From the NCBI GenBank assembly GCA_023255955.1, contig JAGDWD010000007.1, positions 226,928-290,927 on the forward strand: 64,000 nt of DNA. The letters are read 5' to 3'. The translations under genes were made by a program, and so were the position numbers. The notes below the pieces were generated by a model. That model saw only the letters and a program-made list of their open reading frames with translations. It ran no database searches and was not told the origin of the DNA. This DNA comes from Desulfurococcales archaeon. GTDB taxonomy: Archaea; Thermoproteota; Thermoprotei_A; Sulfolobales; NBVN01. Below, piece by piece: positions 29,177-55,577 of this stretch. The first letter of the stretch is position 1; every line of letters starts with the position of its first letter.

Positions 29177-29854
29177 GTGCTGGTGGTGGAGTTGAGTGAG
29201 GTTTACAGTACTCTCCCACCTAAATATGTCGAGTCTCTGGTCTACATAGATCTAGTCGACATATTGACTGCCTACCGGAGAGTATCTAGGCTCTCCACTA
29301 TCGGTAACATTATAGGTGTCCGCGATACATCTCTAAGTAAGTACATCAATGGCAAGCTCAGACCTAGATCCGCCAGGAGCTTGGCCATGATAAAGACTCT
29401 GATCGATATGAACTTAGTAAAGAACGCTGTCTCGGAGTACCTACGTGATAGGAGCTTAATCGAGCTACTGACAGACATTCCGTTCACAAAGCTCATAGCC
29501 TTATCTATCATGGAGAGGTTGGTAAAGCTATTTCACGGTAGCCGTGTAGAGACAGTAATAGCCTCTAGCGAAGCCCTCTTAATAGCTTCGCACATATCGC
29601 ACAGATTGAGGTCCTCTCTAATTAATTTACACACAGTCCGTGGTAGCTCAAAAGTTAGGAATCTAGGTAATACAGCAGTAATCTTAGTGATAGCGGATGA
29701 CGAGATAATTAAGCAGCTGGTTAAGGTTAAGACTGAAGGTAGGAGAACTACTGTGAAATATATATTCCTAGTTATTTATTCAAAGGAGGTGGACATATTG
29801 GCATCCATCTTCCCCAACACTACCGTAGAATACCTTGTCGGTACCCTACCCTAG
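29177..29854 (+). CDS. HTH DNA-binding protein with degenerate phosphoribosyltransferase-like domain (tentative)
   Basis: HTH-like IIGVRDTSLSKYINGKLRPRSARSLAMIKTL; downstream alpha/beta domain VETVIASSEALLIASHISHRL. Confidence 0.4.
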   Translation: MLVVELSEVYSTLPPKYVESLVYIDLVDILTAYRRVSRLSTIGNIIGVRDTSLSKYINGKLRPRSARSLAMIKTLIDMNLVKNAVSEYLRDRSLIELLTDIPFTKLIALSIMERLVKLFHGSRVETVIASSEALLIASHISHRLRSSLINLHTVRGSSKVRNLGNTAVILVIADDEIIKQLVKVKTEGRRTTVKYIFLVIYSKEVDILASIFPNTTVEYLVGTLP

Positions 29855-29859
29855 ATTTC

Positions 29860-30055
29860 CCGTTTGTCCCTAGATGCTTGTTGATGCGGGTTTATGTTTG
29901 TTTATTGTGTCTAGGGACTTCCACCTCGTCCACAGGGTTTTCCCTATCCCTGTGGGTCGTGGGTGGTGTTCGTCCCGAACGGCATGCGGGACACATCTAG
30001 GTCTAGTCCTGAGAGGCTTGGAGCGTTGCTCCCATCACCTCCCAGGGCTCTGAAG
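29860..30055 (-). ncRNA. IS605-type right-end / TnpB guide-RNA (omega/reRNA)-like region, copy 1
   Basis: Homologous by eye to 55350-55545; stems CCACAGGG/CCCTGTGG, GTTCG/CGAAC, GTCCCTAGA/TCTAGGGAC, GGAGC/GCTCC; overlaps and follows the tnpB 3' end. Confidence 0.65.
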
Positions 30056-30260
30056 AGTAGGTTCCAGCAAGCAACTACATCTCTATGCCATAGCTCACCA
30101 CCAACACTACACCTACCAATACGGGAGCTGTTACTGTAAACGATGTGTGTCTTGTGTACTGGGCATACCTTAGATGTGTTCTTAGGGTCTACGTAGATTA
30201 CGGGTACACCAAACTCCCTAGCTTTCTCCTCAATAGCTAGCTGAATACCTCTAAAACACG
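29944..30260 (-). pseudogene. tnpB: Decayed tnpB (IS605 OrfB), C-terminal zinc-finger/RuvC-III fragment only
   Basis: Minus-strand translation RGIQLAIEEKAREFGVPVIYVDPKNTSKVCPVHKTHIVYSNSSRIGRCSVGGELWHRDVVACWNLLFRALGGDGSNAPSLSGLDLDVSRMPFGTNTTHDPQG*; in-frame TAA just upstream at the fusion point. Confidence 0.9.
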
Positions 30261-51037: not shown

Positions 51038-52288
51038 TTAGAGATATAAAGAATTCCCACCCTGCTTGATCTTCTTAATAGAGCCTAGGAGGTCAGCACC
51101 CCCGTATTTAGCCCATATGTAGCAGGCACCTTCTTGGGACACCATACAAGGACCATAAGGTCTTTCCGGCCTACATCCTTTCATGAACATAGGGCATTGG
51201 CTAGGTTTTGCTATACCTAGCACTACCTCACTACACCGACAAGATGGTGGTAGCTCCGCCTCAAGGGTTCGACCGGCTGACGTGAGGACGTAGTCTTCTG
51301 GCCCAGGAGGTCTGAGTCCGTACTGGTAGTATGCGTCTAGCTCCCTATACCTATCCCTTAACATGAGGCCACTCCTTGGTACATATCCTATACCTCTCCA
51401 AGCAGCATCCACCTCCTCGAATACGGAGTTCACGTAATTCTTTGCTGTTGGGTTACCATCCCACTTCACAGCACGTCTGTACTCGACGTAGAGCCCGGGC
51501 TTTCTTTCTAGGATCATCCTAAGTATTTCCGCGATCGAGATGAGGACATCTATACCTTCAAACCCCGAAACTACAGTCGCAATGCCGAACTCTCTAGGGA
51601 GAAACTCCCAGACCGAAGCTCCGGTAACTACCGATACATGACCAGGAGCTATCACGCCCCTTATAGGTAGGAGTCCTCGCTCCCTGTAAAGCTTGATTGT
51701 GTACCTCATGATTGGTGGGGTGAGCCTGAGCACGCTGAGGAGTTTCAAGTTCTTAGGTACCTTACCCTCGAATATGGGTATAGCGTACGAGGGGGCTGTC
51801 GTCTCAAAGCCTATACCTAGGAAAATAGACTCTCTTCCATCGTTTTTAGAGTCCCTAACAGCGTCGTAGAAGCTGTACACAATCCGAACATCAGCACCTA
51901 TAGCCTTCGCTTCAGCTAGGTTTCTAGGGCTTTTGAGGGATGTTGAGGGAACCCTAAAAGCATCCCCGAACGTGTAGACTCTAACACCCTCTAGAGATAA
52001 CCTCACAATCTGCTCTATAATCTTCCCTGGGGTCACGCACACTGGGCATCCAGGACCTGCTACTAGGTCTATGCCGTCAGGCACTAAAGCTCTTATACCG
52101 TACCTTACAGTGGTCCACTCATGGGTCCCGCAGAAATTCATTATCTTTATCGGCATCTCCTCGAAGGACTTGATCCTGCTGTAGTAAGACTCAATAAGTT
52201 TTACTATAGTCGGGGCTATAGTAGAGCCGAACCTCTGCACTAACGCACTAACCTTCTCACCAGCTTTCTCGGTCTCAGACACCACCAC
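51038..52288 (-). CDS. hypD: Hydrogenase maturation protein HypD
   Basis: NFCGTHEWTTVRYGIRALVPDGIDLVAGPGCPVCVTP; GFETTAPSYA; C-terminal Cys cluster. Confidence 0.95.
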   Translation of the reverse strand: MVVSETEKAGEKVSALVQRFGSTIAPTIVKLIESYYSRIKSFEEMPIKIMNFCGTHEWTTVRYGIRALVPDGIDLVAGPGCPVCVTPGKIIEQIVRLSLEGVRVYTFGDAFRVPSTSLKSPRNLAEAKAIGADVRIVYSFYDAVRDSKNDGRESIFLGIGFETTAPSYAIPIFEGKVPKNLKLLSVLRLTPPIMRYTIKLYRERGLLPIRGVIAPGHVSVVTGASVWEFLPREFGIATVVSGFEGIDVLISIAEILRMILERKPGLYVEYRRAVKWDGNPTAKNYVNSVFEEVDAAWRGIGYVPRSGLMLRDRYRELDAYYQYGLRPPGPEDYVLTSAGRTLEAELPPSCRCSEVVLGIAKPSQCPMFMKGCRPERPYGPCMVSQEGACYIWAKYGGADLLGSIKKIKQGGNSLYL

Positions 52289-52444
52289 ACAACTCCTTTT
52301 TCTCTATCCTTAGCCAGAGTTTAAGCTCTAGTAGGGAGCTATGAGATTCTTAACGCGGTAATACGGTAATACCGTTACACAGAAGTTACGGTCTTTCCTT
52401 GATTAAGCTGACGTAGGAGCGTTGATATATGATTTGACTCAGCT

Positions 52445-52882
52445 ATGATCTGGGCCAACTTAGAAGAGAAACTGATATCCTTACTTAAGGAGGTCCTAGG
52501 ACAGTTGGGTATGGAGGTCTACGCAAACGTATTTATAGGTAACATAGAACTTGATCTAGTTGCCATAGAGAGAGCTAGCACTAGACCGATAGTCCACGTT
52601 GTTGAGGTCAAGTCTAGACCTAAAAGCAAGCTAATCTACCAAATCCTAGATAGAGTAAAACTCTCTGATTACATATATGCCGCGTTACCAGCTAAGCACT
52701 ATCCGTACCTAAACCAGCTCCCCGAAGTTGCTGGGCTTCTCATAGTGGATGCTGAGAGGCAGGCAATCTACGAGATAAGAAAAGCTAGGTATATAGGTAA
52801 CGGATGGAGGTTACTAGAACTACTCGGGTCTCGCCCTCTACGGGGAACCGTGAGCAGTCATGTAAATATCCAGACAGGGTGA
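52445..52882 (+). CDS. PD-(D/E)XK nuclease-like protein
   Basis: NIELDLVAIERASTRPIVHVVEVKSR (D...ExK). Confidence 0.6.
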   Translation: MIWANLEEKLISLLKEVLGQLGMEVYANVFIGNIELDLVAIERASTRPIVHVVEVKSRPKSKLIYQILDRVKLSDYIYAALPAKHYPYLNQLPEVAGLLIVDAERQAIYEIRKARYIGNGWRLLELLGSRPLRGTVSSHVNIQTG

Positions 52883-52970
52883 TCCCAAGCAGGAGGGGTT
52901 ACCTCCGCTTAGGATCACCGCGTCCAGATATCTACATGACTGCTCCAGCTCCCCGTAGAGGCTGGCGCCC
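52826..52970. repeat. Large inverted repeat / ~145-nt hairpin
   Basis: 52836-52890 pairs with 52907-52960: CTCTACGGGGAACCGTGAGCAGTCATGTAAATATCCAGACAGGGTGATCCCAAGC vs reverse complement of right arm CTCTACGGGGAGCTGGAGCAGTCATGTAGATATCTGGACGCGGTGATCCTAAGC; apex GGAGG-ggtta-CCTCC; weaker pairing outward. Confidence 0.92.
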
Positions 52971-53329
52971 CCACTAAGTATCTAGCAGTAGACCTTAATC
53001 TAGCTTTCTACGTATAATATGCTTAGAACGTTAATTCAGGTATTATGTGTCTGTGGAAAAAATTGTTTATAGTTTATTGATTATTCACTGATCCTTCTTT
53101 TATATGTTCTTCCAGCTTATAACTATGACTCACTGTTTATCCTAGAAATTATTACTTAGCTAACACCTCAGTAATCAATGCGGCTTACAGCTGCAAAAGA
53201 GATCTACTCAGATGAGACAGGTTAGCTCACCAATCACTTGTGCTGGTTCATCACGCCAATATATAGTGTTCTAGTTAGTATTTAGGTAGTTAATCCCAGT
53301 GTTTACTTCCTAGCTGAAGTATTTTGTGG

Positions 53330-53893
53330 TTAGAGCTCTTCGGACACTACAAGCTTAGTGACTAAGCTCTTCAATACATTCCGGGCTTCCTCAGATATGG
53401 ATGCGGTTTCAAGGGCTGTTTCGATTCTTTCCTTAGTGGATTCCACTATATCTAGTACTGAGGTATAGCCCTTATTGAGGTATCGTATTCCCTGGAGTAG
53501 GGTAGCTATGTTATCACATAGCTTCACTACTAGTGATTCGAGGGACTTACCCTCGTTAAGCTCCTTCAATAAATCTGAGTAGTTCGTTATTTCTAACTCC
53601 CGTATGGCTTCCTCCTCCAGCTGAGTTGAGTTAGCCATAGAGCTCTTAACTTTCTTAACTATGTCACCTGTCACACTCTCCAGTATATCATGAAGTAACG
53701 CCATCCTCATAACTCTCAATGTGTCAACCTGTATTCCAGCTTCATTGAGCTTGTCAGCTACAAGCATGGAGAGGAAAACCACCTCAAATGTGTGGGAACC
53801 GACCGTCTCTGAGTCTGATGGCGGGATACCCCGCAACATCCAGCCAGTTCTAGCTAGGTTCTTCACCCTCATAGCTGAACCGTACTTAACCAA
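53330..53893 (-). CDS. HD-domain phosphohydrolase (YfbR/nucleotidase-like)
   Basis: SHTFEVVFLSMLVAD...RMALLHDILESVTGDI. Confidence 0.88.
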   Translation of the reverse strand: MVKYGSAMRVKNLARTGWMLRGIPPSDSETVGSHTFEVVFLSMLVADKLNEAGIQVDTLRVMRMALLHDILESVTGDIVKKVKSSMANSTQLEEEAIRELEITNYSDLLKELNEGKSLESLVVKLCDNIATLLQGIRYLNKGYTSVLDIVESTKERIETALETASISEEARNVLKSLVTKLVVSEEL

Positions 53894-54060
53894 GTGTCCC
53901 CTATATGCAAGTTACGGTAGTCAGATATATGTTAAAGCGGTTCTAACATGCTAATATTGTTGCTATCTCCTATGTTCAAAACAAAACATGCTTATACACT
54001 AGACAGGACTATCTAAACAGCTTTTAAACTGATACTGAAAGAATATAGTGAGGTATAGCT

Positions 54061-55323
54061 ATGAGCGGTAAAGTTAGCTATTTACAATGGATGTTACAGG
54101 TTCTCAAGAACTCTGTCGAGCTTGGTGGGTTCCCGGAGGAGGTCTACCACATACTCAGTAAACCCGAAAGAGTTCTAATGGTCAGCATACCGGTAAGGAT
54201 GGATAATGGGAAGATAGTGGTGTTTGAAGGCTATAGGGTCCAGCATAACAGTGCTCTAGGGCCCTACAAGGGAGGTATAAGGTTCCATCCTGAGGTAGAC
54301 CTCGAGACAGACATGGCTCTAGCTCTTGGGATGACCCTAAAGAACTCACTAAATGGCTTACCCTACGGCGGAGGTAAGGGTGCTGTAAAGGTAGATCCCA
54401 AGAAGCTGTCTCAGACCGAGCTGGAGAGACTGAGTAGGGGATACGCTAGAGCTATCGCACCGTTAATAGGGGACCTAGAAGACATTCCTGCTCCTGACGT
54501 CGGGACCAACCCGCAGATAATGGCCTGGATGGTTGATGAGTACAGCAAACTCAAAGGACGTAACGTACCTGGAGTCTTCACAGCGAAGCCTCCTGAGCTA
54601 TGGGGTAACCCTGTGAGGCTGTACTCCACAGGCTTCGGGACAGCCGTCGCGGCTAAGGTCGCAGCAGAGAAGTATCTAGGAAGATTTGAAGGGCTGACTG
54701 TATCAGTTCACGGCTTCGGGAATGTGGGTCAGTACGCTGCCTACTATGCTGCTAAGTGGGGAGCTAAGGTCGTTGCTGTGAGCGACACGTCGGGAACTGT
54801 CTACGATCCTAACGGAATAGACGTCGAGCTTGCTATGAAGGTGAAGGAAAGCACTGGGAAGGTCATTAACTACCCGAGAGGTGAGAAGCTTGACCCAGAC
54901 GCCTCCCTCTACGTAGACTGCGACGTGCTCATGCCTTCTGCTATAGAAAACGTTATTAGAGCGGACAACGTCCACAAGGTCAAGGCTAAGGTCATTTCTG
55001 AGGGAGCTAACGGTCCGACTACCCCGGAGGCGGAGAAGGTACTCTACGAGAGAGGAGCCGTCATAGTCCCCGACATAGCTGCTAACGCAGGCGGTGTCGT
55101 AATGTCCTACCTAGAGTGGGTAGAGAACCTTCAGTGGTACTGGTGGAGCGAGGAGGAGACACTCAGCAGGATTAAGACGTTAATGGAGAACAACATCAAG
55201 AGGCTGATAGCGAAGTACGAGTCCTTGAGGTCAGAGAAAGGACCCGTAACAATGAGAAACGCAGCGTTCGTACTGGCCGTAGAAAGAGTATATAAAGCCA
55301 TGAAGCTCAGAGGCTGGATCTAA
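54061..55323 (+). CDS. gdhA: Glutamate dehydrogenase
   Basis: [50 protein letters not shown]. Confidence 0.97.
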
Positions 55324-55349: not shown

Positions 55350-55545
55350 CCGTTTGTCCCTAGATGCTCGTTGATATGGGTTTATGTTCGTTCATTACAT
55401 TTAGGGACTTCCACCTTGCCCACAGGGATCTACTTATCCCTGTGGAGTCATGGGTGGCGTTCGTCCCGAACGGCACGCGGGACACATCTACGTACAGCCC
55501 TACGGGGCTTGGAGCGTTGCTCCCATCACCCCGCAGAGCTTACAC
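55350..55545 (-). ncRNA. Orphan TnpB guide-RNA (omega/reRNA)-like element, copy 2, no tnpB
   Basis: Near-ungapped homology to 29860-30055 with conserved stems; no zinc-finger/RuvC coding region attached. Confidence 0.6.
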
Positions 55546-55577
55546 TCCTCCAGCAATTAAAATACCCTATACGACCC

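Follow-up and report, generated by a model that had tools for sequence, protein, structure and literature searches.

A giant hairpin RNA gene with a bulge-helix-bulge base, predicted beside a PD-(D/E)XK nuclease gene in a Desulfurococcales archaeon

A giant hairpin at positions 52826-52970 of a 64,000-nucleotide stretch of DNA from a Desulfurococcales archaeon (the whole stretch is called the window here) is predicted to be a non-coding RNA gene on the minus strand. It carries a bulge-helix-bulge (BHB) motif at its base and adjoins the gene of a PD-(D/E)XK nuclease. The prediction is based on the inverted repeat, its folding and homologous elements in 19 other genomes. It is considered highly probable that a minus-strand non-coding RNA with a functional BHB exists, and likely that this RNA is excised and circular. 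As the overall explanation we favor, with reasonable confidence, a module in which the BHB-processed RNA works with the neighboring nuclease. A functional partnership of the RNA with the nuclease is fairly probable, and a role specifically as an inhibitor or antitoxin-like element is possible, if rather doubtful.

The hairpin and the strand of its RNA

The hairpin is the sole inverted repeat of such size in the 64-kb window. In a folding scan of the window, the lowest-energy 150-nt stretch by far was 52831-52980 (-111 kcal/mol), the next unrelated stretch reaching -72. The giant near-perfect hairpin of the preliminary description was borne out when 52780-53020 was folded against shuffles, with a minimum free energy (MFE) of -118.3 (z -9.4) on the plus strand and -138.4 kcal/mol (z -13.5) on the minus strand, and with 0 of 200 shuffles as low as the real hairpin on either strand. 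Read on the minus strand, the inner stem (52836-52960) has 59 paired columns, comprising 51 Watson-Crick pairs, seven G-U pairs and one mismatch; two 1-nt bulges were counted where one had been described, and the arm sequences differ between species. The apical hairpin GGAGG-UAACC-CCUCC (52892-52906, minus strand) is the counterpart, in alignments A2, A3 and A5, of the apex AGGGU(G)AUAAAGCCCU conserved in relatives. The stop codon of the nuclease gene (52880-52882) lies within the left arm, as previously noticed. A search of Rfam over 52000-54200 gave no match above the gathering threshold and only a sub-threshold miRNA model, and the hairpins of relatives likewise gave just sub-threshold miRNA-type matches, which are expected of any long hairpin. 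The next most stable folds of the window are located at 55351-55560 and 29851-30060.

Pair types, promoter and base geometry agree on the minus strand and point to an RNA distinct from the nuclease message, which would overlap the end of the nuclease gene in antisense. On this strand, which is also that of the BHB, the non-Watson-Crick transition pairs of the window hairpin are all G-U and none A-C (7:0), in an alignment that scored G-U equal to A-C and thus favored neither strand. The earlier remark that the mismatches are G-U pairable on one strand was correct, the strand being the one opposite the nuclease gene. Across 20 genomes, G-U outnumbers A-C on the RNA strand by 128:41 (p 1e-11, an optimistic value since sites were treated as independent); by locus the bias is strong in most, weak in G010 (10:10) and G009 (13:6) and reversed in G013 (2:5). 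A promoter-like block, ATATTATACGTAGAAAGCTAGATTA, is found at 52996-53019 (minus strand), where relatives of the same genus keep ATATTACG..AG-AAAGATATAC and the window species has a degenerate form. TATA-like boxes lie about 30-37 nt ahead of the central helix of the BHB in most loci, and the transcript should therefore start a few nucleotides ahead of the structure; the degenerate box of the window species counts against the favored explanation. Of the earlier suggestion that a structured RNA is processed from the nuclease transcript, the structured RNA is retained, whereas its source is probably the opposite strand, with a promoter-like upstream region of its own.

Bulge-helix-bulge base, arms and apex

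On the minus strand the RNA ends read GGG-CGCC-AGC-[CUCUAC...GUAGAG]-GGCG-AGA-CCC. Judged from this pairing, the base of the hairpin is a canonical BHB of 3 nt / 4 bp / 3 nt, the substrate type of the archaeal tRNA-splicing endonuclease. The outer helix is formed by GGG (52968-52970) and CCC (52826-52828) and covaries in relatives (GAGG/CCUC, UUGGG/CCCAA), the central 4-bp helix by CGCC (52964-52967) and GGCG (52832-52835), and the 3-nt bulges are AGC (52961-52963) and AGA (52829-52831), all on the minus strand. The limits 52826 and 52970 given in the preliminary description are indeed the ends of the short outer helix; the two 3-nt bulges inside them had been missed. The polarity of the splicing endonuclease places a bulge on the 3' side of each central-helix strand, and the cut position within the bulge is established biochemistry. 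By this rule, one cut is predicted after the second nucleotide of AGC and the other in AGA, and the excised, probably circularized RNA would span 52830-52961 (minus strand), a computed length of 132 nt.

The same base recurs in relatives. A 3 nt/4 bp/3 nt arrangement with the polarity of the endonuclease, including the 3-nt bulge 3' of the central helix, was found in 20 of 20 loci and the mirror polarity in 0 of 20, and the reverse complement of the hairpin base shows the mirror polarity. Shuffled flanks gave the BHB geometry in 2%, in either polarity, a contrast that is somewhat generous because the register was chosen on the data. Pairing of the central helix is complete across the 20 genomes (100% of cells); its first pair occurs as CG, GU, UA, AU and GC, with changes on both sides in 10 of 20 sequences. 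The covariation score of the whole base is 0.63, compared with 0.20 when shuffled and at most 0.22 when slid. The inner helix is paired in 92% of cells over the 20 loci. The outer helix, 3 bp long in the window, is paired in 74% of cells and is short or poor in several relatives, which speaks against the main explanation; cutting there would therefore need an enzyme of relaxed specificity. The genome itself holds two EndA-family (PF01974) genes, which we infer to form a heteromeric enzyme. EndA is reported to cleave BHBs outside tRNA, the products being circularized (PMC7714728; PMC12558985), and the heterodimeric EndA of the TACK group takes a broader range of BHBs (PMC7714728).

The bulges, the central helix and the apical loop persist among relatives, whereas the arms of 42-72 pairs change almost completely yet remain paired. 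Lengths predicted for the excised RNA are 129-146 nt in this genus, 97-128 nt in three related genera and 131-160 nt in a second family of the order, whose stems come close to perfect DNA palindromes across about 45-50 bp. Between G146 and G147 (L073, L074), the nuclease genes of which are 97% identical in DNA, clustered changes in one arm are compensated in the other. This pattern looks like template switching between the arms, as far as can be read from the sequences. Arm covariation may therefore be partly mutational, and selection alone is not to be read from the arms, a point that also weighs against the main explanation. The bulges differ from the arms in this respect, since copying from arm to arm would erase them and yet they persist. 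The apex is conserved across the two families and the arms are not: it is AGGGUGAUAAAGCCCU with small variation in the second family, similar in G004, G013 and G014, and GGAGGUAACCCCUCC or a longer RUGACCCCGGGUAAG form in this genus. A conserved base and apex joined by free arms suggest a putative processing site, ruler and recognition site. In addition, the element lends itself to studying how long, perfect hairpins can evolve arm by arm in nature and stay paired.

The nuclease and its linkage to the hairpin

The nuclease gene (52445-52882, plus strand) encodes 145 aa with E7, D37 and E54-x-K56 conserved, according to homologue alignment and a structure model, and E35, D37, E54, K56, Q66 and R70 are invariant in 21 homologues. 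The AlphaFold model has a pLDDT of 87, with values below 50 in the tail (residues 130-145); the last 16 residues, whose codons lie in or next to the hairpin, are predicted to be disordered. The best Foldseek neighbors are 3dnx and the XisH proteins 2okf and 2inb (E 1e-5 to 1e-4), and the modeled core fold, together with an acidic residue and an (E/D)xK motif, places the protein in the PD-(D/E)XK nuclease superfamily. By sequence, its weak matches are UPF0102 and NERD nucleases, the score against Pfam UPF0102 (PF02021) being 19.2 bits, below the cut-off of 23.6; UPF0102 is usually linked to resolvases. No sequence match was found to the XisH family or to solved structures, no match to ToxN/CptN/TenpN-like endoribonucleases in Pfam, NCBIfam and PADLOC, and no relatives in plasmid, phage and viral collections; outside the order, a phylum-wide sample yielded weak hits alone. 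The dN/dS ratio is 0.09-0.19 in three pairs of relatives, indicating purifying selection, and a fourth pair is saturated.

The hairpin adjoins this same nuclease in 20 genomes of hot-spring archaea from two families of the order and lies within about 0.5 kb of it in 20 of 21 bona fide homologues. Three arrangements occur, downstream convergent (n=6), upstream on the same strand (n=3) and upstream divergent (n=11). The nuclease is present in six of seven same-genus genomes, and in all six the hairpin occupies the opposite strand at the 3' end of the nuclease gene. In G004, G013 and G014, which represent three further genera of the family, the hairpin is upstream on the nuclease strand, and in the second family (nine of G139-G149, together with G154 and G155) it is upstream and divergent. 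The remaining bona fide homologue, in G150 (L080), has no hairpin nearby, which counts against the main explanation and makes this genome a natural test case for the independence of the two genes. The same-genus genome without the nuclease, G006, has no RNA hit either, and in G142 and G144, from a second-family genus, neither the RNA nor a bona fide nuclease was hit. Among the loci of more distant PD-(D/E)XK proteins, 0 of 15 carry such a hairpin (one stable region was inspected).

Two covariance models, R1 from the six same-genus RNAs and R2 from the second-family RNAs, link the hairpins of the two families. R1 matches second-family hairpins within nuclease loci with E down to 1e-14; R2 matches the window RNA at 4.5e-5 and those of G004, G013 and G014 at 4.5e-7 to 0.003, with the G008, G009 and G010 members not reported. 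Across 214 genomes of the order, the models found no convincing member away from the nuclease, under strict filters by which divergent members could be missed, and no more than one confident locus per genome, the antisense strand of the locus itself aside. In its own genome (a 1.64-Mb, 13-contig assembly, 97% complete) the hairpin is likewise single, so that the dispersed copies sought on the earlier idea of a fold-back mobile element replacing the nuclease C-terminus did not appear. That idea is further disfavored by the three arrangements in 20 genomes and by a nuclease fold that ends before the hairpin. The recurrence in 20 genomes also excludes the assembly or chimeric-read artefact considered at first; and where homologues lacking the repeat, with no other copies, had been envisaged as the mark of a random inverted duplication, the opposite was found, homologues carrying the hairpin.

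Several candidate members and partners were set aside. In three genomes from another family (L037, L038, L039), R1 matched by its apex alone (E 0.01-0.06) within an apparent 23S rRNA hairpin, GGUCUGGAGGUAAACCCUCUGGACC, probably by chance. An R2 match in G061 (L115, C15:27465-27620) is a giant hairpin beside ribosomal-protein genes in another family of the order, without a recognizable BHB. The hairpin was not found in phage collections, and the hairpin end pattern had 96 chance matches in viral contigs; of 80 that were folded, two GC-rich segments fell below -75 kcal/mol, neither with a long continuous stem. A wHTH-like protein of 134-147 aa (assigned by eye, with no Pfam match) is encoded divergently from the nuclease in G005, G008, G009 and G010 (L029:4399-4803, L053, L054, L060). 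It was rejected as a third member, being located elsewhere in the genome of the window (L059) and present in nuclease-free genomes.

Proposed function, alternatives and known systems

It is the shared position that suggests a partnership of the RNA and the nuclease. We favor a module whose excised rod would restrain or direct the nuclease, because the RNA changes side and strand yet stays adjacent, and because the nuclease-free genus member is also without the RNA. In such a module, a promoter about 27 nt upstream would start transcription just ahead of the outer helix. Pairing and covariation show that the RNA folds as a long rod, which has a conserved apical loop at one end and a canonical BHB at its base. 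The host splicing endonuclease would then cut both bulges and the ends would be ligated into a stable circular rod of about 130 nt, with which the motif and the two EndA paralogues are consistent. As the gene association suggests, the rod and the neighboring PD-(D/E)XK nuclease may form one module, and the RNA may bind the nuclease via its conserved apex and rod and restrain or direct the enzyme like an RNA antitoxin or cofactor. We tentatively propose a new two-component archaeal system, in which a dedicated RNA rod, circular and double-stranded, would hold or direct the nuclease once the tRNA-splicing machinery has freed it from its own small gene, with a probable function in defence or one like that of toxin-antitoxin pairs.

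The alternatives differ in kind: on physical grounds a DNA cruciform comes first, on evolutionary grounds a BHB intron served by a homing nuclease, and the simplest is that the linkage is historical. If the element acted as DNA, its palindrome would extrude as a cruciform that the adjacent resolvase-like nuclease recognizes or cuts, for autoregulation or at an origin or recombination site. The near-perfect palindromes of about 45-50 bp in the second family fit such a role, as do arms that appear to convert each other and a nuclease that weakly matches UPF0102 and NERD and has a fold like that of small PD-(D/E)XK proteins. Nevertheless, a cruciform has no reason to keep two 3-nt bulges whose place and polarity are constant across 20 of 20 genomes, and it accounts neither for the 128:41 excess of G-U over A-C on one strand nor for a TATA-like box at a set distance, and we regard it as improbable. 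Similarly improbable is a removable BHB intron flanked by exons, for which the nuclease might act as homing enzyme if the intron is mobile. The boundary is that of a canonical intron, and archaeal rRNA BHB introns are established carriers of homing nucleases. Precedents outside rRNA and tRNA genes include BHB introns in a 5' UTR and in cbf5 mRNA (PMC7714728). However, no exon product can be recognized: the site has no minus-strand ORF of at least 60 aa and no tRNA, 52000-54200 gave no above-threshold Rfam match, the predicted start lies only a few nucleotides ahead of the BHB, and the 3' flank continues into the nuclease gene in the antisense direction. Moreover, the nuclease lies outside the supposed intron in 20 of 20 loci, with one copy per genome.

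A strong bidirectional terminator, or an antisense brake where the nuclease gene ends, would suit the overlap with the nuclease 3' end in this genus. This reading has a very small probability and is mostly refuted by the position of the element in relatives, as in other genera and in the second family it precedes the nuclease gene, either on that gene's strand or on the opposite one. There is also no T-run, and we agree with the preliminary description that the length far exceeds that of an archaeal terminator. The two genes may otherwise be neighbors by common descent only, with independent functions. Each has a narrow distribution, with inheritance mostly inside the two families, and some flanking genes are conserved as well. 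This explanation seems unlikely to us, though less so than the foregoing three: the linkage outlasted at least two changes in the side and relative orientation of the RNA, the wider gene context beyond the pair differs between G005, G008 and others, and no RNA was hit in the genus member that lacks the nuclease.

Comparison with known systems separates the familiar parts of the proposed RNA-nuclease module from the new ones. To our knowledge, the substrates of the splicing endonuclease known so far are tRNAs, rRNAs, a permuted SRP RNA and two mRNA introns. With archaeal BHB introns and circular RNAs (tRNA introns, pre-16S/23S circles, cbf5, the HVO_1309 5' UTR) the element has in common the 3 nt-4 bp-3 nt motif in endonuclease polarity and, as predicted here in a host with two EndA genes, excision and circularization. 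Unlike them, it has no exon gene, and its excised part is a rod of 42-72 pairs that has a conserved apex and goes with a nuclease gene. The circularly permuted SRP RNA of Thermoproteus is a stand-alone non-coding RNA reported to be functional through circularization (PMC4731332). It is alike in standing alone and in its circularization, which is only predicted for the hairpin; in contrast, the hairpin is a single uninterrupted stem without SRP domains or an Rfam match and is not tied to SRP genes. The type III toxin-antitoxin systems (ToxIN, CptIN, TenpIN) also set a small nuclease gene beside a structured RNA gene and serve as a working analogy for RNA control. Here, however, the fold is PD-(D/E)XK and not ToxN, the RNA is a single hairpin with no tandem repeats, its side and strand vary, a BHB processing signal is present, and inhibition is proposed by analogy only. 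With UPF0102/YraN, the XisH proteins (2okf, 2inb) and 3dnx the nuclease shares the fold and the E-D-ExK motif, whereas it is below the Pfam UPF0102 cut-off and has no XisH match; no partner RNA of these proteins is known to us. Thus the BHB is an already known processing signal, whereas the free-standing gene for a BHB-bounded giant rod and its PD-(D/E)XK nuclease partner appear to be new, no match having been found. No description of the nuclease-hairpin RNA pair was found in Rfam or the open-access literature, and an earlier account elsewhere is possible. If the reading is true, a stand-alone gene for a BHB-bounded rod RNA would be a new substrate class and would give intron-processing enzymes a role outside gene splicing, and the conserved nuclease linkage would make the pair a concrete protein-RNA module that may serve in defence or genome stability.

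Finally, a promoter motif, GGTAATACGGTAATACC, which contains the palindrome GGTATTACC, precedes the nuclease gene at 52357-52373, and similar motifs are found near the RNA promoters, the nuclease promoters or both in relatives. As a motif specific to the RNA-nuclease pair it was rejected, as it occurs upstream of varied genes genome-wide. The genome has 15 copies of GGTATTACC, mostly intergenic, compared with 5 for the reversed control, and the palindrome is possibly a regulon box. Its copies include C11:25669-25695 and 12 further ones, and precede TFIIB-like, Thy1, Fer4, metallo-beta-lactamase, SSF transporter and other genes.
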